Of a stretch of DNA of 64,000 nucleotides, positions 2,753 through 34,690 are shown one piece after another; the first letter of the stretch is position 1, and each line of letters opens with the position of its first letter. A model generated the notes under the pieces. That model had not been told where the DNA came from. It made no database searches and saw only the letters and a list, made by a program, of their open reading frames with translations. This stretch comes from Streptomyces peucetius. Its GTDB lineage: Bacteria > Actinomycetota > Actinomycetes > Streptomycetales > Streptomycetaceae. Made by a program: the position numbers and the translations under genes. The DNA lies in NCBI RefSeq assembly GCF_025854275.1, contig NZ_CP107567.1, positions 7,068,001-7,132,000 on the forward strand, read 5' to 3'.

Positions 2753-2784
2753 CGCCTGCTCACCACAAGGACTTGATCACCGAC

Positions 2785-13756: not shown

Positions 13757-15400
13757 GTGAGCGGGCTCGCACCTGACCTGAAGTTCATTGCCGAAGGAAT
13801 GATCCGCGGCTCCATGGGACTCATCGAGTCCATGCGCGGTGCCCGCGACACCGCCATCGCGCTCGGGCACGAGCTCGCACGGCAGCATGGCATGGCCGGT
13901 GACGACGACGCGGGGCGGGCGTTCGCCAAGGTGTACGTGTCCGCTGCCTCAGCCACTTTGAATCAGATGGGATTCAGCTCCTATGTCCTTGGGGAAACGA
14001 GCCGCGGCCTCATGCGCACCGCGCGCGAGTTCATGTCCCAGGAGAGCAAGCTGGTGTCCCAATTCCTGGGGAAGCAGGTCGACCTGACCGTAGGGATGGG
14101 CGACCCGGGGGCCGACTGCACCGAGAACTATCTGGGGCTCGGCCGCGAGCTCCCCGAGGTGGTCGGCGAGACGGCCTGGCACGACCAGTACGCCCCCATG
14201 GGAAGGAGCGACCGGTTCCGGGGCTCGCAGGAGAAGATCCGGGACGTCGCCGGGTCCTGGCGCCAGGCCGGCACTCTGATGCAGCGTTTCCTGGAAGACG
14301 CGCAGACCTATTCCGGCACCGCCGGGAAGGCCCACTCCGGTGAGGCCGCCGACGCCTTCCGCGCCTACGTGAAGCACTTCGTCGGTCTCACCTGTCCTCC
14401 GGCGAAGGCGGAGGTCGACGAGCCGCTGGTGACCAATCTGGTCGCCGCCTGTTCTCAGCTGGCAAAGGCATGCGACCGGTACGCGGACCACGTCGAGGCG
14501 GCCAAGGAGAAGATCCAGCACCACCAGAACGACCTGTTCACCGTCGACATGCCTTGGGACCAGCCGATGTTCGGCGCGAACGGGTACGACGGAGGGCTGC
14601 GCGACGCGGTGCTCAGCGACCCGTGGATACAGGACCTGGGGAACGTGGCGCATGCGCTGGATTCCTCGGCCGAGCGTGTCAAGCTGCCGCAGCCCGACGG
14701 CCCGACCCCTCCCGGCCTTCCAAGCGTGCCGTTCTTGCCCCCTCCCATCCGCCTTCCCATACCGGTGCCGATCCGACTGGCGGCCTTCACAGGGAGCGCC
14801 CCCGCGCTGCTCCCCACCGTCAATCCCGTTGACCCGGCAATACCCTTCGCCGACCCGATACCGCCCGCTCCGGGCACCAGCCGTCTGCTCAACGCCTCGG
14901 AGCAGCAGCAGTTCCGCGCCTGGGCGAACTCGCTCACACCGGGCGGACTGGCCGGCGGCGGCGGACCGCACAGCCCGGACAACGCCTACCAGCTGCGCAT
15001 CGCGGGCTACCCCGAACGTGAGGTCCCGCTGGCGGGCCGAAAGCGTGGGCTGATGGTGGACGGCGTACGTCCGGCCGACGGCCACCTCGTCGAGGCGAAG
15101 CACGTACGGGACCCGGACTGCAAAAAGAAGAGTTTCAGGTCCCTGGACAGAGTTGAAGACACGCTGACCAAGCCAGTGAGGGTCAACGACAAGGGAAAGA
15201 TCGCTTGGGACCCTGTCGTGGACTCCATGTACGCCGGTGACGAGAAGGAACTCGTCCGGTACAAGCAAGCCATGGCCAACCCGGCGAACAGCGAGATACG
15301 TGGTTTGGAGATCGTCACCAACGGCCGCGACAACGCAGCCTACTGGCAGTCCATGATGGCCATGACGGGTACGCCCGGTTCAACGCGATACGTGCCGTGA
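13757..15400 (+). CDS. Polymorphic toxin with C-terminal restriction-endonuclease fold (Tox-REase-2-like)
   Basis: A 547-residue protein without signal peptide, starting at GTG with GGGGGAGG 8 bases upstream. The N-terminal 290 residues are helical with WXG100-like features (ENYLGLG, SGEAADAFRAYVKHF), as in toxins exported by type VII-like systems. A Pro-rich linker (about 310-375) follows. The C-terminal 170 residues resemble the restriction endonuclease fold toxin family: SEQQQFRAWANSL, GLMVDGVRPADGHLVEAKHV (a D...ExK arrangement) and YWQSMMAM. Inferred activity: nuclease used in competition. The immunity gene starts 14 bases downstream. No secretion apparatus genes lie in the window. Confidence 0.8.
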   Translation: MSGLAPDLKFIAEGMIRGSMGLIESMRGARDTAIALGHELARQHGMAGDDDAGRAFAKVYVSAASATLNQMGFSSYVLGETSRGLMRTAREFMSQESKLVSQFLGKQVDLTVGMGDPGADCTENYLGLGRELPEVVGETAWHDQYAPMGRSDRFRGSQEKIRDVAGSWRQAGTLMQRFLEDAQTYSGTAGKAHSGEAADAFRAYVKHFVGLTCPPAKAEVDEPLVTNLVAACSQLAKACDRYADHVEAAKEKIQHHQNDLFTVDMPWDQPMFGANGYDGGLRDAVLSDPWIQDLGNVAHALDSSAERVKLPQPDGPTPPGLPSVPFLPPPIRLPIPVPIRLAAFTGSAPALLPTVNPVDPAIPFADPIPPAPGTSRLLNASEQQQFRAWANSLTPGGLAGGGGPHSPDNAYQLRIAGYPEREVPLAGRKRGLMVDGVRPADGHLVEAKHVRDPDCKKKSFRSLDRVEDTLTKPVRVNDKGKIAWDPVVDSMYAGDEKELVRYKQAMANPANSEIRGLEIVTNGRDNAAYWQSMMAMTGTPGSTRYVP

Positions 15401-16494: not shown

Positions 16495-19400
16495 TCAGTC
16501 CCCGTGTTGCGGTATGTGGAAGCGTTTCATGTCCAGGCCGTCCACGCCGTTGTAGTCGATGGTTGCTCCACCGGATTTGCTGAACGGTCGATAGGTGACG
16601 GTCGCCTTCGGGTCGTCCGACAACTGCCACACCTCGATGTTTCCCTTCGGCGTGGTCTTGACATCGGGCTCGCCCAGTTTGGCATGCAGATCCAGGCGGA
16701 TCCTCTCCAGCTGCACGTCATCGATCATTCTGACCCCGGGGCTGTCTTCCTCTCCCATCATATTGCCGTCGCCGTCGACGGCCGTCTCGCGAGCGGAATC
16801 ATGACGAACCTGGTCGTCGGGGTCGAGGCATTTCAGTCCGAGTGGGTCCAACCAGCCGAACGGGTTGGGCACGAACGCATGATGGTTGGGTGCGGCACTC
16901 AAGCCCAGCGGATCGGCTGAGAGATAGGCGGCGACTTCGTCGTCGTAATAGCGGAAGTAGTTGTAGTTGAGGTCGGTTTCCGAGTCGCGGTACTGGCCCG
17001 GAAAACGGATAGGGCAGTCGGCCGACGACGAGCCGGGCGGTGCCGGCAGGCGGGTGCCCCATACGGTGGTGCGTTGTTGCCAGGCTATGCGTCCGTCCGG
17101 TGTCACCAGCTCCGTGGGGGTCCCGACGACGTCCGTGATCACCGCGTGGAAGCGCGCTTCGCATTCCGTCGGGGCGTCACGGTCTACTTGGGCCAGAGGA
17201 CGATGAGTGCCTGGGGCGTAGTCCCAGGTAGTTGTACGCCCCTCCATCGTGGTCTGCTCGACGAGCCGGGTGCCGTCCCAGGTGAATGTGATGCGCTCCG
17301 TGATCGTGCCGTCGTCTGCCCGGCGGTGTTTGGCAGTACGGCGGCCCAGCGGGTCGTAGATGTACTGCCAGTGGTCGCCGTCGGGTGTGGTCGCGTCGGT
17401 GAGGCGGTCTTCCGAGTTCCACGCGAAGGTCCACGTGCGCTGCTGCCCGTTCAGCAGCTTGCGCGTGCGGCGGACGAGGCGGCCTTGGGCATCGTGTTCG
17501 TACACCGTACGCCCGGCCCGGCGGATCAGGGTTCCGCCGAAATCACGGTCGCCGGTGGAGGGGTGGTGCGGGGCGGTGGCGTGTGCGAGGTTGCCGAGGT
17601 CGTCGTAGGCGTACTTCTCGGTCCAGCCGTGCGCGTGGACGGCGGTGATCCGACCGGTCGGATCGAGGTCGTAGCGTCGGGTGCCGGTGGTCAGTTCCCG
17701 GATCTCGGTGACGTGGTTGTCTGCACGGTAGGCGTAGGTACGGTGTTGGAGGAGATCTTCGCCGGCCTCCGGACCGCGGGTGAGCGACTGTACCGTGAGG
17801 CGGTCGACGGAGTCCCAGATCTGCACAAGGCTGATGCCGTCGCCGAAGGAGCGAGAGGTCTCGCGGCCGGCTGCGTCGTACTCGAAGTCCAGCCTGTGTC
17901 CGGTAGCTGTCAGTCGGGTGGGGCGGCCTTCGGCGTCATAGGCCCATTCGGACAGGGTGCCGGCAGGCGTGCGGCGCGAGATGCGGTGGCCTCGTGGGTC
18001 CAGTGTGTAAAGGCTGGTGCGGCCGCCGACCGACTCGGCGACGAGGCGGCCGACGGCGTCGTACTCGCGGTGAAGGTCCACGTCGGGATTGGCGGCATGG
18101 ATCAGGCGGCCCGCAGGGTCGTAGGCGTGGACGGTTTCCGTGCCGTCGTCGGCGCGCGTGGTCACCGTCCGGCCGAGTGCGTCACGAGTGAAACGGAGTG
18201 TTTCGCCCGCCCCGTTGGTTCGGGAGGACAGTCGCCCTGCTGCGTCGTAGGTGTAGGCGAGGGATCGGCCGTTGAAGTCGGTTTCGGATGTCAGACGGCC
18301 GGCAGGGTCGTACTCGTAGCTCCACGTCAGGCCCTGAGGGTTGGTCACCTGCTTCAGCCGTAGCTCGGTGTCGTACGAGAAGGCGTAGCGCGCGCCGTCC
18401 GCGTCGGTACGGGTGGCGGGCAGGTCGAAGTGGGTGTGGGTGTGCCGTGAGGTGTTGCCGGCGAAGTCTGTGTGTGCGACGAGGTTGCCCTCCCCGTCCC
18501 ACGCCCACGTCTCGCGCGTGCCGTCCGGACGCTCGCGCCAGGCGGGCCTGCCGTCGATGGTCCATCCCTGCCTGGTGGTGTTCCCGAGGGGGTCAGTCAT
18601 CGCCGTGATACGCCCGTGCGGGCCGCGGCGAACAGACGTAGTGTTGCCGAAGGGGTCGGTGACCGCCATGGGAAGACCCGTCTCGTCGGTGGCGATGACG
18701 GTGGTGTGCCCCAGTGCGTCGGTGACGGCGCTCAAATGGCCGTGGTCGTCGTACGCGTATTGGGTCAGGGCGCCCGCAGGGTCGGTGGCTGAAGTGCGAT
18801 TCCCGCGTGTGTCGTACGTGTATCGCCAGAGGGCGCCGTCCGGCTCCCGTACCTCTACCGGCAGGGCCAGTTCGTTGTACTTGGCAGACCCCGTCGTGCC
18901 ATCCGGGCGTTCCGCGCGCTGGAGTCGACCGGAGTCGTCGTACGCGTAGCGTGTTGTGTTGCCGAGCGGGTCGGTCACGGCGAGACGCAGCCGGTTGGTC
19001 TTGTCCCACTCCGTGTGGGTGGTGTTGCCGAGAGGGTCTGTCACTGCAACCACTTTGTACGCCTCGTTGTAGACGTAGGTGGTCCTGTGACCGAGGGAGT
19101 CGGTGTAGACCGTGGTGCGGGCCGCATCATCGTAGTGAAGGCGGCCGGTCATCATGCCGTCCGAGCCGACGGTCCGCAGGACGCGCCCGCGCCGGTCGTA
19201 GACGTAGCCGAACTTGGTACCGTTGCGGTCGGTCCACGCGGTGATTCGGTGTTCGGCGTCGTACGTGTAGCGCAGGGCCTCACCGGTGGAGTTGACGACC
19301 TCTGTGAGGTCACCTACTGCGTTGTAGACGAAGGTGGCCAGCGATACACCCTGCTCCCTCGTGCCCGTTCCAGAGCCGAGGAGTCGCAGGCCGGTGACAC

Positions 19401-20910
19401 GCATCTGGGCGGGATCGGTGTCGATGGCGATGCGGTATCCGCCGGAGTGGGCGATCTCTACGGGAAGCCCTTCAGGGCTGTATCCGACGGTGATGCGGTG
19501 TTCGTTGCGGTCGGTGATGGCGTGGAGAGCGAGTTCGGTCGCCTCAGCCACGGGCAGAGGCGCGAAGTGGAGGGTCCGGTCACGCTCCGGCATGTGGATC
19601 GTCATCGCGCCGCCGGGCTCGCCGTCCCAGTTCAACGGCCAGTGCGGGCCGCTGATGGGGAGGGTCTCCATATCGGGGCGAGGAATGGGATACCGCAGCA
19701 GCATGCCGTCGTCGGCGATGTAGACGACGCCCTTGTCGTCCATTTCGAGTCGTTGGTCGAGGGTGGCGGCCCACGTGCGGCCGAACCAGCCTCCGCATGT
19801 GTGCCCGGAAACGTAGCTGCGTTCGAGAACGAGGGGAAGGGCCCCAGGGAGGGAGACGTCGGTGGCGAGGATGACCATTTCGCCGGTTGCTACGTCGATC
19901 GGCTCGCCGGTAGTGCATTTCTCACTACCGCACTTGTCATGCTTCCCCGGTTCGCCGTCTGCCCGGTCACCGGCGCTTCCGTCGCGGCCAAGGGCGTTCT
20001 GGCGATCAGTCAGACGTTTCAGAGCACTTCTGGCCGCGCTGCCGCCGCGCACCACTGCGCCGCCACCGCCTGTGGCGAGGGCCAACAGCAGGTCAGGGGT
20101 TAGTTGTCCGGCGGCCCGCCATGGGTTTCGCGACCACTCGTCCCAGTTCGCGACGGCCTTGGCGAACTCCTTCGGGTTCTGCACAGCGTAGGCCGCCCCA
20201 TCGGCCATGCCGGCAAGTTGCATGGCGAAGCCGTTGACGTCACCGTCGGCCAGCGGTTCCACGATGCCGAAGAGGTTGTCCACGCCGTCCGTGAAGCCAC
20301 CCCAGAAGTCGCCTCCCTTCTCCTTCGCAGCCGCCAACCCCTTGGGCTTGTCCGGTGCGTCCTTGGCGCTCTTGTTCAGTTTGCGCTGTGAGTCGGCGAC
20401 GACTGTTTGGAGCTCTTCAATAAGCTTGTCGAGCCGTTCTATGCACTTGGTCATGGCAACGGCGCCGGGGTCGCTCTCCGGCGGGCGCTCGGGCAGTGGA
20501 TCGTCGCTGCGCTCCACGGCAGGGTTGTACGCCTCGACGTCCTCCCAGTGACGCTTGGATGTCGCCCGAGCCTCGTCAGCGCCCTCAATTATCGGGGTGC
20601 AGCGCTTCTGCACAGAGCGAAGTTTGTCAGCGTATGCATCGAGGGCGGAGGCCGCGAGGAGGAAGTGCTTGTTGGCCGAGCTGAGCTCCTTGGGCAGACT
20701 CTCGATCGCCTCCTCGAAGGCGCTCGCCCCTTCGCCTGCCCACTCCTTGAGCGACAGCACTTGCAGCTGATCACGCCCGTCGTAGAAGGCTCCGGCGTAG
20801 GCGCGCAGTTCGATGACCAGGTCGTCGACCTTGTCCGGATCGCCGTAGATCAGGTCCTTCGGCGTACAGCCGGCCGGTATCCGCTCCGGTGCCGGCCTGT
20901 CGTCCAGCAT
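16495..20910 (-). CDS. RHS-repeat polymorphic toxin with WXG-type N-terminal secretion domain
   Basis: A 1471-residue protein. ATG at 20910 has AGAGGTGAG upstream. Residues 1-120 form a helical T7SS-like leader with a W-x-G turn (LKEWAGEGASAFEEAI). A DUF6531 cap follows near residue 345 (GEPIDVATGEMVILATDVSL), then about 25 YD repeats (TYDAAGRLSSRTN style) that build the RHS shell. The core ends with YFRYYDDEVAAYLSADPLGL and GWLDPLGL. The last about 100 residues after this are the toxin tip: it ends with GGATIDYNGVDGLDMKRFHI, reminiscent of small RNase-type tips, but I cannot name the family. It overlaps the upstream gene by one base (TAATG) and is followed 3 bases later by the immunity gene. 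Confidence 0.9.
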   Translation of the reverse strand: MLDDRPAPERIPAGCTPKDLIYGDPDKVDDLVIELRAYAGAFYDGRDQLQVLSLKEWAGEGASAFEEAIESLPKELSSANKHFLLAASALDAYADKLRSVQKRCTPIIEGADEARATSKRHWEDVEAYNPAVERSDDPLPERPPESDPGAVAMTKCIERLDKLIEELQTVVADSQRKLNKSAKDAPDKPKGLAAAKEKGGDFWGGFTDGVDNLFGIVEPLADGDVNGFAMQLAGMADGAAYAVQNPKEFAKAVANWDEWSRNPWRAAGQLTPDLLLALATGGGGAVVRGGSAARSALKRLTDRQNALGRDGSAGDRADGEPGKHDKCGSEKCTTGEPIDVATGEMVILATDVSLPGALPLVLERSYVSGHTCGGWFGRTWAATLDQRLEMDDKGVVYIADDGMLLRYPIPRPDMETLPISGPHWPLNWDGEPGGAMTIHMPERDRTLHFAPLPVAEATELALHAITDRNEHRITVGYSPEGLPVEIAHSGGYRIAIDTDPAQMRVTGLRLLGSGTGTREQGVSLATFVYNAVGDLTEVVNSTGEALRYTYDAEHRITAWTDRNGTKFGYVYDRRGRVLRTVGSDGMMTGRLHYDDAARTTVYTDSLGHRTTYVYNEAYKVVAVTDPLGNTTHTEWDKTNRLRLAVTDPLGNTTRYAYDDSGRLQRAERPDGTTGSAKYNELALPVEVREPDGALWRYTYDTRGNRTSATDPAGALTQYAYDDHGHLSAVTDALGHTTVIATDETGLPMAVTDPFGNTTSVRRGPHGRITAMTDPLGNTTRQGWTIDGRPAWRERPDGTRETWAWDGEGNLVAHTDFAGNTSRHTHTHFDLPATRTDADGARYAFSYDTELRLKQVTNPQGLTWSYEYDPAGRLTSETDFNGRSLAYTYDAAGRLSSRTNGAGETLRFTRDALGRTVTTRADDGTETVHAYDPAGRLIHAANPDVDLHREYDAVGRLVAESVGGRTSLYTLDPRGHRISRRTPAGTLSEWAYDAEGRPTRLTATGHRLDFEYDAAGRETSRSFGDGISLVQIWDSVDRLTVQSLTRGPEAGEDLLQHRTYAYRADNHVTEIRELTTGTRRYDLDPTGRITAVHAHGWTEKYAYDDLGNLAHATAPHHPSTGDRDFGGTLIRRAGRTVYEHDAQGRLVRRTRKLLNGQQRTWTFAWNSEDRLTDATTPDGDHWQYIYDPLGRRTAKHRRADDGTITERITFTWDGTRLVEQTTMEGRTTTWDYAPGTHRPLAQVDRDAPTECEARFHAVITDVVGTPTELVTPDGRIAWQQRTTVWGTRLPAPPGSSSADCPIRFPGQYRDSETDLNYNYFRYYDDEVAAYLSADPLGLSAAPNHHAFVPNPFGWLDPLGLKCLDPDDQVRHDSARETAVDGDGNMMGEEDSPGVRMIDDVQLERIRLDLHAKLGEPDVKTTPKGNIEVWQLSDDPKATVTYRPFSKSGGATIDYNGVDGLDMKRFHIPQHGD

Positions 20911-21347
20911 TATGCGCTCACCTCTGTGGGGTCTGGCGGCCATTCCTCCTGGAGGAACTGCTTCGGAGGGTCGAACGTGGGCTTCCCGACGTTGTCCCAT
21001 GTCCACTTGCCGAAATCGCCGATGGGCAGTTTGGAGATGTTGTCCGCTGTGGGGGAGAAGTTCTGGACGCCCAGCAACTCCGCCAGCATGTAGGCGGCGA
21101 TCACCTCATGGAGGCGCGCAGCGACCTCGGTGGCGTGGTCGGCGACTTGGCCCATGCCAAAGCCCCAGGCCGTCAGGAAGCCTTTTCCGGAGTCCAGGAT
21201 CTCGAACGTTGCGTTGCCCTGGAGATGCGCGGCCAGCCTGTCCCTGTGGTCCTTGACATTGCGAGCGGCGACGACCGACTCTTCCAAAGGGTCGATCATC
21301 TTCCGCACCGAGGTCCACTCGATCCTGTAACCCTCGCCGGGCTTCAT
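20910..21347 (-). CDS. Small helical WXG100-like partner of the RHS toxin
   Basis: A 145-residue helical protein (MKPGEGYRIEWTSVRKMIDP, then VVAARNVKDHRDRLAAHLQG) ending in an aromatic, Pro-rich tail (KQFLQEEWPPDPTEVSA). It lacks a signal peptide. Length and helical pattern fit the chaperone or co-secreted partner often found before T7SS-linked RHS toxins; the family is not certain. The stop overlaps the RHS start. ATG at 21347 is preferred; ATG at 21374 is an alternative. Confidence 0.65.
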   Translation of the reverse strand: MKPGEGYRIEWTSVRKMIDPLEESVVAARNVKDHRDRLAAHLQGNATFEILDSGKGFLTAWGFGMGQVADHATEVAARLHEVIAAYMLAELLGVQNFSPTADNISKLPIGDFGKWTWDNVGKPTFDPPKQFLQEEWPPDPTEVSA

Positions 21348-21378
21348 ACCGTCACCACTTTGGCGTCCGTGCATGGCG

Positions 21379-21801
21379 TCATGACTCGTCAAGGCGCAGG
21401 TCCCCCTGGATGTCTTGTCGGTTCCGGTCGCGGGCGGCCGCCGGTTCCAGCAGCGCGTCCACATCCAGCAGGAACGGTTGCTCACTGAGGGGGTCCACCA
21501 GGGCCCGGACGCCTTCGGGGAGGAGCTCTGCGATGTCGCCGGCGGTGGTGAACGCCCATGCACACGCACCGGCGAAGAGGGCCAGGTGCTTCACCGACGT
21601 GAACAGAGGCACCACTGGCCCCAGCTCAGTTTCGCAGACCAAGAAACCCGGCTGGTCGGGCCGTTGGAAGTACAGGCGCGTCGCTCGCGCCGCAGCAATC
21701 TTCTCGCCATCCGACATGCTCGTAGCCGCTTCTCGCCGCGCCTGATCCGCCAGCATCTGCAGGCCGCTGGATTGATGCACGCCACCCCCACCCGTGTTCA
21801 T
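21379..21801 (-). CDS. SseB-domain-like protein
   Basis: A 140-residue protein with the SseB N-terminal pattern: TRLYFQRPDQPGFLVCETEL, VVPLFTSVKHLALFAG, LPEGVRALVDPLSEQPFLLD. SseB-like proteins in actinomycetes are common beside T7SS effectors and may act as loading or regulatory factors. It is the first gene of the RHS operon. Starts at 21825 or 21801 are both possible and neither has a strong ribosome site. It lies 42 bases downstream of the IMPase gene on the same strand, so read-through from that operon is possible. Confidence 0.7.
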   Translation of the reverse strand: MNTGGGGVHQSSGLQMLADQARREAATSMSDGEKIAAARATRLYFQRPDQPGFLVCETELGPVVPLFTSVKHLALFAGACAWAFTTAGDIAELLPEGVRALVDPLSEQPFLLDVDALLEPAAARDRNRQDIQGDLRLDES

Positions 21802-21843
21802 GCCAAGAATGATCACATGGGGCATATTGCTGGCGCAATCGAG

Positions 21844-22620
21844 CTATGGGCACGTCAATGCCGTGGTGGTCCACAGCCCGGCCAGTGCATGCGCCACGTC
21901 TACCGCACCTGCCACCAGCACCGGCGAGTTGAACGAGAACGCGCGCCCGTCCGCGTCGAGCACCGCCCGGCCCCGGTCCCGGCAGAGCGCCACTCCCGCC
22001 GCGACGTCCCATGGCTTGGGCGCGATGCACACGCATGCGTCGAGCCAGCCCTCCGCCACGCCCACCAGGTCGAGGGCCATGGAGCCCTGCATCCGGACCC
22101 GGTAGGCCTCGTCCTGGACGCGGTCGAGGAACCGGCGGGGCCCGCCGTGGGCCGAGCCGGTGCCGGAGACGCCCACGACAGCGCGGGCCAGGTCGTCGGC
22201 CGAGGGTACGGGTGCCTTCGGGAGCGGTGTCGTCCAGCGCCGGCCGAGAGCGGGGGCGTGCACCACGCCCACCAGCGGTTCGCCGTCCTGCACGTAGGCG
22301 AGCGATACGGCGTACATCGGCCCGCCCCGCGCGAAGTTCATCGTGCCGTCGATCGGGTCCAGCAGCCAGCACCGCGCGGGCAGTGGCAGTGGCTGCCCCG
22401 CCGCCGACGATTCCTCACCGACGACCGGGATGTCCGGTGTACGTGCCGCCAGCACCTGCGTCACCCGGGCTTCCACCTCGACGTCGGCCGCCGTCACCTC
22501 CTCGCCCGACGCTTTGAAGCGTGCGGTGGACCATTCCCGGCCCGCCGTCGACAGCCAGTCGACCGCAGCGTCGACTGCCTCCTCGGCGACGGGCAGCAGC
22601 TTGCCGCTCAAGTCAATCAC
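21844..22620 (-). CDS. Inositol monophosphatase / CysQ-like phosphatase
   Basis: A 258-residue member of the Mg-dependent, Li-sensitive phosphatase family. All metal-site motifs are present: GEESSA, LLDPIDGTMNFARG and KPWDVAAGVAL. Family members act on inositol phosphates, 3'(2'),5'-bisphosphate nucleotides or sugar phosphates; the sequence alone does not tell which. The GTG start overlaps the 2H phosphoesterase stop (GTGA). Last gene of a four-gene coupled unit, which favours a nucleotide or cyclic phosphate product as substrate (inference). Confidence 0.88.
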   Translation of the reverse strand: MIDLSGKLLPVAEEAVDAAVDWLSTAGREWSTARFKASGEEVTAADVEVEARVTQVLAARTPDIPVVGEESSAAGQPLPLPARCWLLDPIDGTMNFARGGPMYAVSLAYVQDGEPLVGVVHAPALGRRWTTPLPKAPVPSADDLARAVVGVSGTGSAHGGPRRFLDRVQDEAYRVRMQGSMALDLVGVAEGWLDACVCIAPKPWDVAAGVALCRDRGRAVLDADGRAFSFNSPVLVAGAVDVAHALAGLWTTTALTCP

Positions 22621-23252
22621 GCCGGGACCAGAGGGAGTTCCAGCAGCGTCTCGGCGTGGGCGCCGTGCTGCCCCATGACGTAGAAACTGAGCCGGTCGAA
22701 GACCCACTCCTTGGGCAGAGCGACCCGGTCCTGCGCGGTGCGGACCAGCTCCAGGGCGGTTTCCTCCTCGGCACGGCCCAGCGTGATGTGCGGGGCGTAG
22801 GCGTCCCCCGTGTAGCGGTAGCCGTAACGCTCGTAGCTGGTCCGCTCGTTCTCCGTGAAGCGGGAGACGTCCTTGTCGCCGTCGAAGGCCGCCCGGTCGA
22901 GGTGCGGGTCCAGTGCCGCCAGTGCGGCCTTCTGCAGTGCTTCGAGCCGTGGCGGACGCTCCAGGGAGAGGAACAGCCAGCCGATCGGCTGGTAGACCAC
23001 GCCCGTGCTGGACAGCGACACCTCGCCCCGCAGTCCGCCTCCGGCCGCCGACCCACCGATCGACTCCAGCGCCTGCGCCGGATCGAGCGAGCCCGCGAAC
23101 GGGCCCTGGAAGACGGTGACATGGGGCAGGTTGCCGTCCGGATGCAGGGGAGGTTGCAGAGCGGTCTCACCGCCTATGTCCCGCTGCAGTTGTACGGCGG
23201 CACGCAGATGGTCCGCTCGTGGAAGCAGTGCGACACCGAGCCATCTCGTCAC
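22617..23252 (-). CDS. 2H phosphoesterase (2'-5' RNA ligase-like)
   Basis: A 211-residue protein with both HxT signatures: HVTVFQG (H44) and HITLGRA (H155). 2H enzymes open 2',3'-cyclic phosphates or 2'-5' linkages in RNA, nucleotides or ADP-ribose 1'',2''-cyclic phosphate. GTG at 23252 has AGGAG 8 bases upstream and overlaps the stop of the kinase gene (GTGA). Its own stop overlaps the phosphatase start. Coupling on both sides with a sugar/nucleoside kinase and a phosphatase points to stepwise processing of one phosphorylated compound. Confidence 0.86.
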   Translation of the reverse strand: MTRWLGVALLPRADHLRAAVQLQRDIGGETALQPPLHPDGNLPHVTVFQGPFAGSLDPAQALESIGGSAAGGGLRGEVSLSSTGVVYQPIGWLFLSLERPPRLEALQKAALAALDPHLDRAAFDGDKDVSRFTENERTSYERYGYRYTGDAYAPHITLGRAEEETALELVRTAQDRVALPKEWVFDRLSFYVMGQHGAHAETLLELPLVPA

Positions 23253-24112
23253 GGGTGAGCTCCTATTTTCTTGATCACGTGCAGCGCCGCGTCCAGTCCG
23301 CGCCGCATGCAGGCCGCCGGGGACTCGCCGTGCAGCCACCCCGCGACGACGCCTGCGTCGAACGCGTCGCCTCCGCCCGTCCTGTCCACGGGTTGCACGG
23401 GGACGGTCGGCTCGTGGATCAGTTCCCCGTCGGCAGTGGCCCACACGGCGCCCTCGGCGCCCATGGTCACTATCACATCACCCGCGACCGCTTCAGCGAT
23501 GCGTAGCGCCGTCCCGGCTGTGTCGGGTGCGCCGCGGGCGTACGGCAGGCGGGCAGCCTCATCGGCGTTCATGAAGTTGAGCGACGCTCCACGCGCGAGT
23601 GAGCGCATGTCCCTGCCGTTCCACTCGACGGAGACACTGCGTCCGGCCCGGTGCGCGAGGTCGACGACCCGTGCGAGCGAAGGGGTGGGCTCGCCCACGA
23701 CGTGTACGTGATCCGATCCGCGTATGTCGTCGTCCGTGACGGCGTCGAAGGCGAGACCACGGTCTGCGCCCGCGAACGTCAGCATCCGCTTGCCGCCGCC
23801 TGACGACAGGACGACGGCCATGCTCGTCAGTGATCCCGTCTGCACCTGCACGAGTGACGTGTCGACACCTTTCGCACGCAGCACCTCCAGGCACATCGCG
23901 CCGGCGGCGTCGTCACCCACGGCGGACACCAGCCGGGCGGAGCACCCCTGACGCACGAGCCCGACCGCCGTGTTCGATGCCGCGCCTCCCGGCAGCACAC
24001 GGCACTCTTTGCCCCGCAGCTTCTCGTGTTCCGCCGGCAGACGGTCGGCCTGGGCGATGACGTCGAAGTTCACACCGCCCACGACGAGCACACGCTTCGG
24101 CTGCCCGGTCAC
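23249..24112 (-). CDS. PfkB-family carbohydrate or nucleoside kinase
   Basis: A 287-residue kinase. It has the N-terminal GGVNFDV and PGGAASNTAVGLVRQG motifs and the PfkB signature DRTGGGDAFDAG with the catalytic Asp. It resembles ribokinase and adenosine-kinase-type members, but the substrate cannot be read from the sequence. The GTG start overlaps the stop of the upstream DUF4145-like gene and its stop overlaps the 2H gene, both as GTGA. One odd feature is DRTGGGD in place of the common DTxGAGD; the catalytic residue is kept. Confidence 0.87.
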   Translation of the reverse strand: MTGQPKRVLVVGGVNFDVIAQADRLPAEHEKLRGKECRVLPGGAASNTAVGLVRQGCSARLVSAVGDDAAGAMCLEVLRAKGVDTSLVQVQTGSLTSMAVVLSSGGGKRMLTFAGADRGLAFDAVTDDDIRGSDHVHVVGEPTPSLARVVDLAHRAGRSVSVEWNGRDMRSLARGASLNFMNADEAARLPYARGAPDTAGTALRIAEAVAGDVIVTMGAEGAVWATADGELIHEPTVPVQPVDRTGGGDAFDAGVVAGWLHGESPAACMRRGLDAALHVIKKIGAHP

Positions 24113-25374
24113 GGCCGCCCCCAGCGGTAGCTTTCGAACAGCACGTGACGCACCAGCCGTTCGCGACTCTCCGGGACGCTCTCCGGCGGGAACGAGGCAT
24201 GGGTCACCAACTCGCGCACCAGACGCTCGTACGTCTCGTCGTCCGAACCGCACTCGTGGAACGACCGCATCAGCTCCCGATACAACTCTCCGGGACGCAT
24301 GTCCAGCTCCTCCAGCCATGCCCGGTTCGCGATGAACACGTTCGCGGCGGCGGAACGCAGTCGCGTCTGGGTCCGGGCGGGGAGCATGTCGGAGTTGAGC
24401 AGCTCGAAGTACGCGTCGTCCTCCTGCGCGTGCATACGCAGGTTCTGGCCGCCGACCGCCAGGACGTCCCTGTTCAGATGGAACAACTCCAGGCCGAGAT
24501 GGTGCGGTACGTCGAGGACCGTTACGCCCATGTCCGCCAGACCCGCCTCGTCGGTCGACAGGGCCGAGAGCAGGTTGGCGAACATGTCGCTGTGCTTGGG
24601 CACCGCGATCTGCGCACCTGCCGGATCGGCCAGGAACTCCTTCGCCGTCACGCCGCCCCACCGGCCGGCACGGGCGCCCAGCAGATAGAAGTTACGGCCG
24701 CCCATCGAATAGCCCACCCGTCCCACGGGCACCACCTGGTCGCGGATGGTCTGATCCGTCTCCAGAAGGTGCAGCACACGCTGCTCGTTGTACACCGCTG
24801 CGTCGAGAAGCCGGGCAGAGACGTCCCGCACGAGATTGTCCGACCAGGGGAGCTGGACCGGCACCACATGGTGGCCGCGCTGCGCCAGCGTCCGCTCCAG
24901 GCCGCAGGCGAGCAGTACGGCCTTCACCACGATCAGGGTCGAGTCGGCGAGGCGGGTCGTGCCGGTACCGCGCCGGCGGTCGGAGAGTTCGTGCCGGACG
25001 GCGTCCTCTTCGAGGGATCGGCTGGTCTGCCCGTACCAGACCGCCAGTTGGGTCAGGGCGTTGAGACACGGCCGGACGTCCTCGGCGGAGATCTCCTCGG
25101 TCGGTGAATCCTGCGCATGACTGCCGTAGTTGCCGTAGTTCTGGATCGTACGCACGGCCAGAACGACCTTGGGAGGCACCAGATTCTTCGCCGACAGCAC
25201 GGTCAGCAGGGACTCGAGCGTCGGCTTCGAGCCGATGGCCTCGCGAATGGCGATGTCCAACAGGATCGACTCCGCTGCTCTCCTCGCCGTGCCGAGGAAG
25301 ACCTCGGGGTCCGATTGGGCGTACCTCAGAGCCTTTCTGTACAGCCGGAGCGGCTCCCCCTCGTTGCCCGTCAC
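24109..25374 (-). CDS. Protein with N-terminal DUF4145-like domain, unknown function
   Basis: A 421-residue protein. Residues about 10-110 resemble DUF4145 (VFLGTARRAAESILLDIAIR, KNLVPPKVVLAVRTIQNYGN), a domain found in several restriction and defence proteins. The remaining 300 residues are unassigned; they include LNRDVLAVGGQNLRMHAQED and an acidic, helical C-terminus. No membrane segment. Start is GTG at 25374, with GAGGAT 13 bases upstream, so the start is not certain. It is the first gene of the coupled kinase, 2H phosphoesterase and phosphatase unit, and may be the sensor or substrate-binding part (inference). Confidence 0.72.
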   Translation of the reverse strand: MTGNEGEPLRLYRKALRYAQSDPEVFLGTARRAAESILLDIAIREAIGSKPTLESLLTVLSAKNLVPPKVVLAVRTIQNYGNYGSHAQDSPTEEISAEDVRPCLNALTQLAVWYGQTSRSLEEDAVRHELSDRRRGTGTTRLADSTLIVVKAVLLACGLERTLAQRGHHVVPVQLPWSDNLVRDVSARLLDAAVYNEQRVLHLLETDQTIRDQVVPVGRVGYSMGGRNFYLLGARAGRWGGVTAKEFLADPAGAQIAVPKHSDMFANLLSALSTDEAGLADMGVTVLDVPHHLGLELFHLNRDVLAVGGQNLRMHAQEDDAYFELLNSDMLPARTQTRLRSAAANVFIANRAWLEELDMRPGELYRELMRSFHECGSDDETYERLVRELVTHASFPPESVPESRERLVRHVLFESYRWGRP

Positions 25375-25494
25375 CCCGTGCCCGCATCCTCTTCTCTCAG
25401 GTCCGCGGACAGAAACCTAACAGCGTGATCAAGGCCGGGTACAGGCAGTATCCGGTCGCTGTGCCGACGATACGTCGTCCTGCCGTGAGGGCGA

Positions 25495-26724
25495 TCAGCG
25501 AATGTCGCTCGAGTCCCTGCCGCGCAGGGAGGACAGCACAAGACGTCCGTAACGTGTGGTGAGGACCAGGGCGGTGGCGGCCAAGGCGGCAACGAGCGCG
25601 GCGACGACGGCGGTCGCGCCTTTAACGCCGAGCACTTGGAGAACGCTCAGCGCCGTGCCCACGGGCAGTCCCAGGATGGTGAGGACACCGAGGGCACCGG
25701 CGATCTGCTGACTCTCCTGGGTCTGGACGAGCCGCGCGTAATCGGCAGCTTCGGCGAGGATCTCGCTGAAACGCTCGGGCAGGCGGTGCTGGGCCTGGAA
25801 GCTCAGCAGCAGTTCGTTTGCGGGGCCGTGGGCGGTGAGGTGTTGGCGCCAGTAGGTGCTGCGGAAGGCGGCGATGTGGCGCTCGAGGGCGGACACCCGG
25901 CGCGCGAGTTTCGGGCCGTCGAAGACACCCGAGAGCCCGTCCGTGAGCTCGTCGATGTGGTCGCGCTGGACAGTACCGAGGAGGAGGGCGTCCAGGTAGA
26001 CGGTGCGGCAGTGAAGTTGTGCGAAGCCGTAGAAGTCGCCGTCGCCGGGGTCGGCGCGGTGCCCGAGGAACGCGGCACCGTGGCGCAGCACCAGGGCGCT
26101 CCAGTCGGCGGATATCCGCAGGGCGTGCGCTGTGCGATCGGGCCACTGTTCGAGTGGTGTGGGGAAGTCGGCGTCCGTGGAGCGCGAGGCGAGGTGCCAG
26201 AGCCATCGGTCTGCCGTCTCCGGCAGCCGGCCGTCCTGACGCAGAGCGGGCGTATGGTGCGCGTCGGGGGTGAGGAAGGCGACCGTGTACGGGCGGGCGA
26301 TGGCGAACGGGGCCGTGGCGCCGCGTGGCTGGGCGACACCCTCGAGCAGCACAGCGGGGGAGAGCGGCCCGTCGAGCGGGTCGGGGGCGGCGGGGCTGCG
26401 GTGGCCGATGGCGCGCAGCGTCTCCAGCAGGGCAGGTCCCTCGACATCGAAGTGCAGTACGGCGAGGGCGAGGTGGGGGTGCCGAGCTGTGGCGGTACGC
26501 AGTAACTCGATTCCGCGCAGGTGCAGCGACTGGTGTCGCATCTCCATGAACCGGTGCCAGCGACAGGGCCGTTCCGGAGTGCCGTAGAGGGCTCGGGCGG
26601 CGGCCGGGGTGAAGTACGTCTGCCGGGTGGCCGTGTCCGTGCGGCGGGAGCCGAGGTCGAACGGTATCGGCCCGGTCGGCCAGTCGGGCGGAGCGGTCAG
26701 CCGCACGGGCACCACGACGGCCAT
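25495..26724 (-). CDS. Membrane protein with CorA-like topology, unknown function
   Basis: A 409-residue protein with a large soluble N-terminal part, a long helical stretch (about 300-340), and two membrane helices at the C-terminus (IAGALGVLTILGLPVGTALS and TAVVAALVAALAATALVLTT) ending in a basic tail. This order recalls CorA-like channels, but no GMN motif is present. Start is uncertain: ATG at 26724 is used here, and a TTG at 26799 in the same frame is possible. The 120 bases after its stop hold the upstream region of the DUF4145 operon. Function unknown. Confidence 0.68.
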   Translation of the reverse strand: MAVVVPVRLTAPPDWPTGPIPFDLGSRRTDTATRQTYFTPAAARALYGTPERPCRWHRFMEMRHQSLHLRGIELLRTATARHPHLALAVLHFDVEGPALLETLRAIGHRSPAAPDPLDGPLSPAVLLEGVAQPRGATAPFAIARPYTVAFLTPDAHHTPALRQDGRLPETADRWLWHLASRSTDADFPTPLEQWPDRTAHALRISADWSALVLRHGAAFLGHRADPGDGDFYGFAQLHCRTVYLDALLLGTVQRDHIDELTDGLSGVFDGPKLARRVSALERHIAAFRSTYWRQHLTAHGPANELLLSFQAQHRLPERFSEILAEAADYARLVQTQESQQIAGALGVLTILGLPVGTALSVLQVLGVKGATAVVAALVAALAATALVLTTRYGRLVLSSLRGRDSSDIR

Positions 26725-26977
26725 TGCCTGCCGGACGCCGGTGACGGAGCTGAGGTCCGTGGTCAACGGGTGTGCCTCCGATGCGCAACCGATGGTCAAG
26801 TGCCGGACGGTCCTCAGGATACGGATCTTCGCGGGAGGGGCGCTCTGGGCTTCGAGCGATCGCGCGTTTCGCCACGCACGACGGGCGGTACTGAGGGTGG
26901 CGGCCTTCCGTACAGGCCGTCGCCGTACCGACTGCCCGGCTGGTCAGCCGCGTGTGCGCCCCGCCACGCTGAGTGAC

Positions 26978-31634: not shown

Positions 31635-33485
31635 GTGAGCGAGCAGCCGGGCGGGGCTCCCGAGCGCGTGCAGTACCCGGAGTTCCTGCTGCGGTTGCCG
31701 GGCGGGGGGCCGCAGGCACGTGGCCGCCTGCTGGCCGAGAAGGGGACGAACGGAAGCCAGAAGTTCGTCGTCCTGGCGGGCGCTCCGGCCAGGCCCGAGG
31801 TCGTCCCCTCCTTTCCTGGCCGTATGCAGTCGTCGCACCGCCTTCGCGAGTCACTGATCGCGGAGGGGTTGATCACGGAGTCGACGACTTGGCCCGGGTG
31901 GCTGGAGACGGTCCGCGACATCGAGTGCAACTCGCCTTCGGCCGCCGCGGAGATCCTTGTCGGTCGCAGCGCCAACGGCTGGGTGGAGTGGAAGACCGCC
32001 GACGGGCATCCGCTGGCCGACTTCCTCAGCAACGCGTGGTGGGGCCCCAACAGGGCATGGCTGGTGCGTGGCTCCAACGTCTCCGGAGTCGACCTGGTGC
32101 AGCGCATGTGGCTGCCTGCGCAGCAGGTTTCCGTCCCGGCCGGCCGGTTGCGGCAGGGTGTCGAGCCCGGTATGGCGAAGGACCGGCTCCGCGCCATGGT
32201 GGAGGAGGATTACGACGCCGCCGCCACGTACAACCAGAAACGGGAGCTCGTCGAGGAACTGCATGCCTTCGTCTCCCGAATGAGGCCGGGCGACGTGGTG
32301 TGCACGATCTCCGCCGGGCGGCTCCATGTCGGTGAGATCACCGGCTCCGTCGAACAGATCGCCTCCGACGACGGCCGGTCCAATCTGCGGCGCCCGGTCG
32401 AGTGGCAGGCTGCCGGCTATCCGTACGAGGAGCTCCCGGAGGAGCTCCAGCAGAAGCTGTCCGTGCAGCATGACGTGGTCGACCTGACCGTCGTCAAACC
32501 GTTGCTCGAAGGGCTCGGGCTCTCCGACGCCGAGCTGGCCATCGAGGCCGAGGCGACCGCCGACGCCGACGCGAGCGCCGAGATCGCCGCTATCACCGAA
32601 CGCCGCCGGGAGCTGGAGCTGCCCGAGCCCGGCCAGGAGCTCGCCGACGAGCTCCTTGTGCACGACGTGGCGTGGCTGCGAGAGGTGCGCGACCTGCTCT
32701 GGGACGAGCGTCAGCTCGTCCTGTACGGGCCGCCCGGGACCGGGAAGACCTACCTCGCGCTCAAGCTCGCCGAGTTCCTCGGAAGCGGTCCCGAGCAGGT
32801 GAAGCTTGTGCAGTTTCACCCCTCCTACTCGTACGAGGACTTCTTCGAGGGCTTCCGGCCCCGAGAGGATCCCGAGACGCGGGAGGTGGCGTTCCGACTC
32901 ACTGCCGGGCCGCTGCGTGAGCTCGCCGACCTCGCGTCCCGCGAGGGCAACCGGCACATCCCGCACTTCCTGATCATCGACGAGCTCAACCGGGCCAACC
33001 TGGCGAAGGTCTTCGGCGAGCTGTACTTCCTGCTGGAGTACCGCAACAAGTCCGTGCGTCTGACCTACTCCGGGGACGATTTCGCGCTGCCACCGAACCT
33101 TTTCGTCATCGGCACCATGAACACCGCCGACCGCTCCATCGCGCTCGTCGATGCCGCCATGCGCCGCCGTTTCGCGTTCGTCGAACTCTCCCCGCGCGCG
33201 GAGCCGACCAACGGATTGCTGCGTCGTTGGCTCGCCGACCGGAAACTGGGCGCCGAGCCCGCCGACCTGCTCGACGCCCTGAACGCACGCATCGACGACC
33301 CGGACTTCCGCATCGGACCGTCGTACCTCATGAAGAAGGGGGTGTACCGGGACGGGGGCCTGGAGCGGACGTGGCGCACGAAGGTCCTGCCGTTGCTGGA
33401 GGAGCACCACTACGGCGACGGCATCGACGTCAGGGCACGCTACGGACTCGAGGCCCTTCGCAAGCAGTTGGAGTCCGGGGCGTGA
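31635..33485 (+). CDS. mcrB: McrB-type GTPase of a type IV restriction system, with N-terminal DUF4357-like region
   Basis: A 616-residue AAA+ protein. Walker A GPPGTGKTY is near residue 365, Walker B FLIIDELNRAN near 445, and the McrB signature NTADRSIALVDAAMRRRFAF follows; these define the GTP-driven motor of McrBC. The N-terminal part (KFVVLAGAPARPEVVPSF, RESLIAEGLI) resembles DUF4357, and the middle region probably reads the modified base. GTG at 31635 fits GAGGAG 5 bases upstream; GTG at 31629 is too close. The stop overlaps the mcrC start as GTGA. With McrC it should cut DNA carrying modified cytosines. Confidence 0.93.
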   Translation: MSEQPGGAPERVQYPEFLLRLPGGGPQARGRLLAEKGTNGSQKFVVLAGAPARPEVVPSFPGRMQSSHRLRESLIAEGLITESTTWPGWLETVRDIECNSPSAAAEILVGRSANGWVEWKTADGHPLADFLSNAWWGPNRAWLVRGSNVSGVDLVQRMWLPAQQVSVPAGRLRQGVEPGMAKDRLRAMVEEDYDAAATYNQKRELVEELHAFVSRMRPGDVVCTISAGRLHVGEITGSVEQIASDDGRSNLRRPVEWQAAGYPYEELPEELQQKLSVQHDVVDLTVVKPLLEGLGLSDAELAIEAEATADADASAEIAAITERRRELELPEPGQELADELLVHDVAWLREVRDLLWDERQLVLYGPPGTGKTYLALKLAEFLGSGPEQVKLVQFHPSYSYEDFFEGFRPREDPETREVAFRLTAGPLRELADLASREGNRHIPHFLIIDELNRANLAKVFGELYFLLEYRNKSVRLTYSGDDFALPPNLFVIGTMNTADRSIALVDAAMRRRFAFVELSPRAEPTNGLLRRWLADRKLGAEPADLLDALNARIDDPDFRIGPSYLMKKGVYRDGGLERTWRTKVLPLLEEHHYGDGIDVRARYGLEALRKQLESGA

Positions 33486-34690
33486 CCACCATCGATCTCG
33501 TCGAGCACGCACCGCCCGAGCCGCACCGCTTGGCGGACGCCGTCGGCCGGGCGCTCGCCGCCTCCGGCGTGGTCGATGCCAGTCCCGACCCGTACCTCGC
33601 CGGGCACTGGCGGCTGCGCGCCGGCAGCAAGGTAGGCGCGCTGACCCTGACCGCCCCCGGAGCCGGGCCCGTCACCCTGCGCATCGCACCCAAGGTGCCG
33701 ATCGCCCGGCTGTTCTTCCTCCTCGGTTACGCGCTCTCTCCGAATCTGGCACCCGAGGGCGACCCGGTGGACGTCGCCGAACACTCCGGGGTCCTCCCCG
33801 CGTTCGCGCACGCCTTCGAACGGCAGACGGCACGAGCGCTCGCACAAGGGCTCGTCCAGGGCTATCGCACCATCGAGGAGAGCGCCTTCGTCGTACGCGG
33901 CCGCATCAGGGAGGCCGATCAGATACGGCGCCGCTTCGGCAGTACGCTTCCCGCGGAGATCGTGCACGACGAGTACACCACCGACATCGCCGAGAACCGC
34001 ATCCTGCGAGCCGCTGTGGAACGCCTGATGCGTCTACCAGAAATTCCTGCAGATGTGCGCCGGCGTCTCGCGCACCATCGGGCGCGACTGGCGGACGTCG
34101 CCTGTCACGTAAGCGGACGTCCTCTGCCCTCCTGGCGCGCCACCCGCCTCAATACGCGCTACCACCACGCACTCCGCCTGGCCGAGAGCCTCCTGCGCGA
34201 TGCCTCGGCCGAGCACGGCGCGGGCGGGCTGCACATCGACGGTTACCTCTTCGACATGAACAAGCTGTTCGAGGACTTCGTCTGCACCGCGCTGCGTGAA
34301 GCCCTCGTCCCTTACGGTGGCCGCGGTGAACTCCAGGCCCGCGGCGTGCATCTAGACCGGGACGCCGCCGTCCGCATGCGCCCGGACCTCGTCTGGTACG
34401 CCGATGACGGTACGCCCCGCGCGGTCGTCGACGCCAAGTACAAGGCGGAGAGGCCCCAAGGGTTCCCCGACGCCGACCTGTACCAGATGCTGGCCTACTG
34501 CACCGCGCTCGGCCTGTTCGAGGGGCATCTTGTCTACGCCAAGGGCAACGTCGGGCACGCGTCACACCGGATCCGCAACGCCGGCATCACCATCCACCAG
34601 CACGCGCTGGATCTGGACCAGTCGCCGACGGTGCTCCTGGCCCAGGTGCAGGCCCTCGCAGGGCGGCTGGCCGGGACCACCCCCGTATGA
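33482..34690 (+). CDS. mcrC: McrC-type nuclease subunit
   Basis: A 402-residue protein of the McrBC 5-methylcytosine restriction component family. It has the family motif DEYTTDIAENRILRAAVERL and a C-terminal PD-(D/E)xK nuclease core: MRPDLVWYADDGTPRAVVDA followed by KYK. The GTG start overlaps the mcrB stop by four bases, as usual for this pair. It is followed after 39 bases by the helicase gene. Full length for the family. Confidence 0.93.
   Translation: MTTIDLVEHAPPEPHRLADAVGRALAASGVVDASPDPYLAGHWRLRAGSKVGALTLTAPGAGPVTLRIAPKVPIARLFFLLGYALSPNLAPEGDPVDVAEHSGVLPAFAHAFERQTARALAQGLVQGYRTIEESAFVVRGRIREADQIRRRFGSTLPAEIVHDEYTTDIAENRILRAAVERLMRLPEIPADVRRRLAHHRARLADVACHVSGRPLPSWRATRLNTRYHHALRLAESLLRDASAEHGAGGLHIDGYLFDMNKLFEDFVCTALREALVPYGGRGELQARGVHLDRDAAVRMRPDLVWYADDGTPRAVVDAKYKAERPQGFPDADLYQMLAYCTALGLFEGHLVYAKGNVGHASHRIRNAGITIHQHALDLDQSPTVLLAQVQALAGRLAGTTPV

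Follow-up and report, generated by a model that had tools for sequence, protein, structure and literature searches.

Why would a bacterium encode a kinase, a 2H phosphoesterase and a phosphatase in one tight cassette with a protein that resembles a sensor? The question is raised by a minus-strand locus in a 64,000-nucleotide stretch of Streptomyces peucetius DNA (contig NZ_CP107567.1, positions 7,068,001 to 7,132,000), which we call the window. A preliminary description of this stretch had proposed a four-gene cassette at 21844-25374 with a GTGA overlap at each junction, and both the coordinates and the overlaps proved exact. The four genes, here A, B, C and D, do behave as one inherited unit; that description missed, however, a fifth gene, X, which lies upstream and belongs with them. 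We tentatively propose that X-A-B-C-D is a patchily distributed module, often found among defence genes, that guards the cell by damaging its membrane, a reading to which we give somewhat less than an even chance.

A five-gene cassette

A locus search with the alignment of A returned 14 loci: nine with full-length A (L014-L022), one with a truncated A (L023), one with the binding domain only (L024) and three (L025-L027) that match the DUF4145 part of A only and were dropped from the counts. In what follows, the ten loci are the window and L014-L022. The features of the window copy are:

25495-26766, minus strand: gene X, CorA-like membrane protein of 423 amino acids, with a TTG start preceded by GGAGG
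25576-26019, minus strand: match to the PADLOC CorA-like profile PDLC01043 on X residues 250-397 (long helices and membrane part), E-value 1.9e-10
25375-25494, minus strand: X-A spacer of 120 base pairs (bp), with the leader AGGA[TC][GA]CGG at its end (leader in 10/10 loci)
24109-25374, minus strand: gene A, 421 amino acids, DUF4145/HEPN-like domain and binding-protein fold
25093-25335, minus strand: DUF4145 match, A residues 14-94, with the canonical HEPN arginine out of place
24121-24975, minus strand: type-2 periplasmic-binding-protein fold, A residues 134-418
23249-24112, minus strand: gene B, PfkB-family kinase of 287 amino acids
22617-23252, minus strand: gene C, 2H phosphoesterase of 211 amino acids
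21844-22620, minus strand: gene D, inositol-monophosphatase-superfamily phosphatase of 258 amino acids

The overlaps of four nucleotides that join consecutive genes from A to D recur at A-B in nine of the ten loci and at B-C and C-D in all ten, the sole exception being L019, where A and B overlap by 7 nucleotides with the start chosen in our analysis. The gap between X and A ranges from 69 to 174 bp across the same loci, and the leader is kept in every one; translation of A probably starts from a ribosome-binding site of its own.

A CorA-like membrane protein and a sensor-like protein

Gene X encodes two hydrophobic stretches and, besides PDLC01043, matches the CorA profiles PDLC01174 (E 4.6e-8) and PDLC01178 (E 1.4e-7); the CorA-effector profiles match all 31 X homologues scanned. 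The nine best rows of a fold comparison are CorA or MRS2, in a match that is weak; outside these two families, all ranked entries were helical bundles or further helical proteins, an absence of other folds that carries no weight. The Pfam CorA family gives no match at E<=1 in the 31 homologues, and Pfam ZIP appears in six of them (best E 0.0083). CorA metal transporters carry a GMN signature, which is absent from the consensus of the 31 sequences, and a search of solved structures with the X profile returned no plausible match (best E 0.15). The CorA likeness of X suggests a membrane effector.

The preliminary description took the first gene of the cassette, A, to be DUF4145-like. This holds for residues 14-94 only (PF13643, E 8.2e-7, 29.4 bits against a Pfam cut-off of 23.1), whereas the bulk of the protein is a two-lobed fold spanning the whole domain, that of type-2 periplasmic binding proteins. 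The same fold is found in nutrient-binding proteins and in Thi5, MqnD and similar biosynthetic enzymes. Gene A thus encodes a HEPN-like helical domain joined to a ligand-binding fold. The HEPN ribonuclease (RNase) motif is R-x(4-6)-H; A keeps R75, G81, N82 and H86 in all ten loci, with ten residues between the arginine and the histidine. Since the motif is not found in any of the ten, we reject A as an active HEPN RNase. PADLOC assigned no family to A, B, C or D at E<=1.

Three enzymes with intact active sites

The four families named in the preliminary description each score above their Pfam cut-offs, and its statement that the kinase, 2H (H44, H155) and phosphatase motifs are intact extends to all ten loci. 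The PfkB match of B (E 9.7e-46, 156.9 bits against 25.8) comes with the catalytic G248-D249 in each of them. Both HxT motifs of C (PF13563, 2_5_RNA_ligase2; E 1.8e-7, 31.8 bits against 27) are likewise kept, as H44-x-T46 and H155-x-T157, and H44 gives way to R in one (P0085) of the 22 C homologues of a larger set. D (Inositol_P; E 2.6e-42, 145.6 bits against 27) keeps GEE at 68-70, D88, P89, D91, G92, T93 and D205 throughout, with I90 replaced by V in one locus. By sequence, B is a sugar or nucleoside kinase, C a 2H enzyme and D a phosphatase, all members of their superfamilies whose active sites are intact.

In NCBIfam, B reaches 120.5 bits against ribokinase (cut-off 299.65) and 120.3 against ribose-1-phosphate kinase (cut-off 500), while D reaches 107.4 bits against HisN (275.15), 99.7 against CysQ (228.8) and 65.4 against inositol-1-monophosphatase (332). 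The nearest family to C is the phosphonate-operon 2H protein, far under its curated cut-off, and a solved-structure search with the C profile gave no plausible match, the best (E 0.25) being a designed protein. As all three fall far below the curated cut-offs, no named substrate can be given to any of them.

Conservation, joint inheritance and rarity

The order A-B-C-D is found in all nine full-length loci, where identity to the window copy is 72-86% for A, 65-82% for B, 64-83% for C and 57-76% for D; L023 has X and the truncated A, and lacks B, C and D. In all 11 loci examined for it, X stands upstream of A, with differing outer neighbours. Over five pairs of loci, the ratio of non-synonymous to synonymous substitution rates (dN/dS) is 0.12-0.22 for A, 0.18-0.25 for B, 0.15-0.26 for C, 0.26-0.36 for D and 0.08-0.23 for X, and the matched parts of the ten loci contain no internal stops. 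Pairwise distances of the five genes are correlated at r 0.90-0.97, with the distances of X tracking those of A at r 0.97; for none of the ten gene pairs did any of 1000 permutations reach the observed level. This correlation shows joint inheritance, not joint function. The conserved overlaps and the dN/dS of 0.12-0.36 for A-D mean that the arrangement is not due to chance, and chance adjacency is also ruled out because the order and the overlaps persist and particular subfamilies of B and D accompany A.

Those subfamilies were traced in a set of 80 genomes, of which 5 carry A, 4 match C but lack A, another 20 have X but lack A, and 51 make up the rest. At E<=1e-35, B is found in 5/80, exactly the A-bearing ones, even though the S. 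peucetius genome alone has 19 PfkB-family places, and D is found in six, the five A-bearing genomes and G288.

Gene A itself is rare: it occurs in 5 of 295 Streptomyces genomes, S. peucetius included. Contig coordinates identify the remaining four as the genomes of L014, L015, L018 and L020; the genome count and the locus set therefore overlap. C is found in nine of the 295, namely the five with A, G288 and G171 without A, and G066 and G021 with partial matches. In G171, C occurs without A or X; in G288 it lies next to a 46-residue piece of B, with D on a separate contig. This D-type phosphatase (L088, 8216-9196, minus strand) is 62% identical to D and has no A, B or C nearby. X, with distant and partial matches counted, is found in 42 of the 295 genomes.

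The preliminary description had made its case depend on gene order being kept beyond close relatives. The order is indeed kept inside Streptomyces, with A down to 72% identity, but largely not outside the genus, where we saw only a pair formed by the binding domain of A and a 2H protein (L024, described below). Two A queries, A4 and A2, each hit one of 346 sampled Actinomycetota genomes, that of S. peucetius itself, which rules out A as a wide family. Cargo carried by plasmids or phages was also rejected, as no record in sets of 72,556 from plasmids and 50,697 from phages matched A at E<=1e-5, and in viral contigs no relative was confirmed with queries A1 or A2 (few peptide patterns each).

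Other partners of X and a distant A-C pair

Fifteen loci (L069-L083) carry an X of at least 56% identity and no A. In seven of them X follows a large nucleoside triphosphatase (NTPase) and a small protein, and in two more the small protein only. In L071, L074, L075, L077, L078, L081 and L083 the operon begins with a methyltransferase-like gene and continues with a STAND-type NTPase bearing an FGE-sulfatase domain, the small protein and X. The STAND-type label is based on the one NTPase scanned (L075), which matches FGE-sulfatase above its cut-off (E 4.1e-34) and AAA, nSTAND1, NACHT and an N-terminal DUF4145 (E 0.0047), all below theirs. An RNRSTH motif is found in 8/8 copies of the NTPase, L023 included, and the small protein has a weak cold-shock-domain likeness (E 0.015-0.027). 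This X-STAND operon is possibly a separate undescribed system.

A tree of X with 27 rows, its bootstrap not yet settled, has a group of 12 rows (support 84/99) that takes in six of the eight STAND-linked X and none of those linked to the cassette; the ten cassette-linked copies fall outside this group and do not form one group among themselves. The partner label changes 3 times on the tree, against 6.2 in shuffles. More distant relatives of X, 25-27% identical, have other common neighbours (L084-L086), among them, in L085 and L086, an upstream 203-amino-acid gene of no known family.

L024, from a metagenome-assembled genome of the Bifidobacteriaceae, carries the binding domain of A (26% identity over 306 residues, E 4e-29) on a different N-terminus, which matches nothing in Pfam and which looks TIR- or DUF4062-like. 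A 2H protein follows 8 bases after this gene (28% identity, E 1e-30), and next comes a protein that matches RyR below threshold (E 0.046) and in which membrane helices can be made out by eye; an AbiP2-type reverse transcriptase (E 1.8e-146) is encoded ahead of these genes. Within 10.5 kilobases (L024, 2766-13267) lie the reverse transcriptase, the binding-domain protein, the 2H protein, the weak-RyR protein, a histidine phosphatase and an isochorismatase-family gene. Judging from this single locus, the binding domain and the 2H protein may be the core, with N-terminus and output exchangeable. Diverged metagenome A proteins (P0063, P0064) and C proteins (P0159, P0160) both come from contigs with lengths of 4938 and 6721, and these matching sizes hint that they may be paired likewise.

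A possible membrane-damage defence and its alternatives

How could these five products work together? On our reading, the binding fold of A, presumed to lie in the cytosol, would detect a phosphorylated small molecule whose level goes up during infection or when RNA is damaged, candidates being a 2',3'-cyclic nucleotide, ADP-ribose cyclic phosphate (Appr>p) or a ribose phosphate. A would then trigger or release X, which would open or disrupt the membrane. C, D and B would edit the same molecule, by opening the cyclic phosphate, removing a phosphate and putting one back, respectively, and this editing would set a threshold or turn the signal off, as NrN does for the type III CRISPR CorA effector. 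Membrane defence, although we lean to it with less than even confidence, is suggested by the CorA profiles on X and the CorA or MRS2 rows that head its fold comparison, the constant place of X beside A, the binding fold of A, the rarity of A, the B and D subfamilies that accompany it, the known defence genes near five of the ten loci (a plain count, with no enrichment claimed), the X of the STAND operons, the L024 pair next to its AbiP2-type reverse transcriptase and the precedent of the CRISPR CorA effector, which acts with a phosphodiesterase. Weighing against it are the weak CorA fold match of X, the lack of a recognisable synthase and a competing account as an accessory salvage operon, which we consider unlikely.

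In such an operon B, C and D would recycle an unusual phosphorylated sugar or nucleotide, converting its cyclic phosphate to a linear one, then freeing the sugar or nucleoside and finally making the 5'-phosphate, with A as a sensor-regulator and X as an ion or solute channel. The three chemistries, as known for the families, form a complete route, the nearest families (ribokinase/ribose-1-phosphate kinase for B, phosphonate-operon 2H for C, HisN/CysQ for D) fit it, and so does the fold that A shares with nutrient-binding proteins and biosynthetic enzymes; the CorA-effector profiles on X, the rarity of A, the defence neighbours and the existence of the X-STAND operon do not. Clean-up of RNA ends or ADP-ribose cyclic phosphate, with C opening 2',3'-cyclic ends or Appr>p, D dephosphorylating, B rephosphorylating and A reading the damage, was the leading idea of the preliminary description and appears distinctly improbable. 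2H enzymes are known for such chemistry (available text of PMC9503650) and S. peucetius has a KptA-type PTS_2-RNA gene (C1:3981549-3982043) as a possible Appr>p source, but some 3.1 Mb separate this gene from the cassette, the genome's three other 2H genes all match PF13563 more strongly than C, and X is left without a role. The cassette does have a 2H enzyme and a phosphatase that might take the next step, but it also holds a PfkB kinase and a CorA-like protein, and its scanned neighbours include no KptA, ligase or macro domain. It is very doubtful that X belongs to a unit of its own that merely adjoins an A-B-C-D module. X does occur without A-D (42 of the 295 genomes match X, 5 have A), and X and A do not overlap, with A having its own leader; yet X adjoins A in all 11 loci, with outer neighbours that differ, its distances follow those of A, and the tree group holding most STAND-linked X contains none from the cassette.

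Returning to membrane defence, a bolder form of it would be a new class of immune signalling, in which a binding-protein sensor joined to a HEPN-like adaptor reads a phosphorylated sugar or mononucleotide, the level of which a dedicated kinase, 2H phosphodiesterase and phosphatase control, and gates a membrane effector of the CorA type that is independent of CRISPR. This effector would be exchanged between the sensor cassette and a STAND NTPase cassette, and the N-terminus of the sensor between DUF4145 and a different domain. We regard this as rather unlikely. If it were true, CorA-type effectors, described for type III CRISPR in the available text of the sources, would also act in Streptomyces without CRISPR, and the sensor would be an intracellular binding-protein fold, for which no defence role was found in the literature searched. 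A search for a new immune messenger would then have a defined set of five genes, with active sites intact, to start from.

Relation to known systems

In line with the preliminary description, which was aware of none, no account of this gene set was found in the open-access literature searched; the interpretation given there as a whole, that the products could process an RNA repair product, ADP-ribose cyclic phosphate or a signal nucleotide, is partly supported. The closest parallel is type III-B CRISPR, in which, according to the available text of PMC10600005, a CorA effector acts with a phosphodiesterase, immunity requires both CorA and NrN, and CorA is less toxic when NrN acts; CorA families may respond to different messengers (available text of PMC11229360). 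Like the CorA sets with NrN/DEDD or SAM-AMP lyase treated there, X carries its CorA-like membrane part at the C-terminus, behind a soluble domain at the N-terminus, and an enzyme able to cut phosphodiesters is encoded nearby. In contrast, this enzyme is a 2H protein, A-D matching DUF4145, PfkB, 2H and Inositol_P only and not NrN, DEDD or SAM-AMP lyase; besides a kinase and a phosphatase, the cassette also brings in a sensor of the binding-protein type; and Pfam gives no CorA domain on X. The Cas10 palm domain PF22335 (Cas10-Cmr2_palm2) is absent from all 26 X-bearing genomes (the control was positive in 5/14), which rules out X as a member of type III CRISPR.

DUF4145 is a branch of the HEPN superfamily for which fusions to other conflict-system domains are listed (available text of PMC3710099). 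The N-terminal domain of A resembles this branch, except that its HEPN RNase arginine is out of place, and a fusion of DUF4145 to a binding-protein fold was not found in that text. In NTP-dependent conflict systems with STAND NTPases, an FGE-sulfatase domain is reported mainly from cyanobacteria (available text of PMC7159879); the other partner of X is likewise an NTPase with FGE-sulfatase in a multicellular bacterium, whereas A-B-C-D has no NTPase.

Defence neighbourhood

The defence scan covered, apart from X, seven genes of the window, together with ten large proteins picked by hand from six loci; L020 and L021 lay outside it. The five loci with known defence genes nearby are the window and L015-L018. 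L015 has DrmA and DrmB near the cassette, and L016 carries the same two gene clusters, counted by clustering and not by profile scan; L017 has a type IV restriction enzyme, and L018 a DrmMI-like gene and a PDC-M68B candidate. The single proteins scanned in L019 and in L022 gave no match, and one of three in L014 matched a TAP-like CRISPR-associated profile, which was excluded from the count.

The preliminary description placed the cassette in a defence and toxin region, as the window genes bear out. Three long plus-strand genes at 164-9872 match DruE-like SNF2, DpdE (E 0) and DrmMI-like profiles and, on these matches, are predicted to form a mixed Druantia/Dpd/DISARM-like defence operon. A GajB-like UvrD-type helicase is encoded at 34730-36865 (plus strand), preceded by a DUF4357-AAA_5 gene at 31635-33485 (plus strand) and a gene without family assignment at 33482-34690, the latter two of which look McrBC-like. 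A WXG100-like protein with a Tox-REase-2 domain is encoded at 13799-15400 (plus strand). Finally, the minus-strand region 16495-21825 encodes an RHS-repeat-like protein of about 1470 amino acids (by eye), adjoined by a gene with a sub-threshold type VII secretion-associated match.

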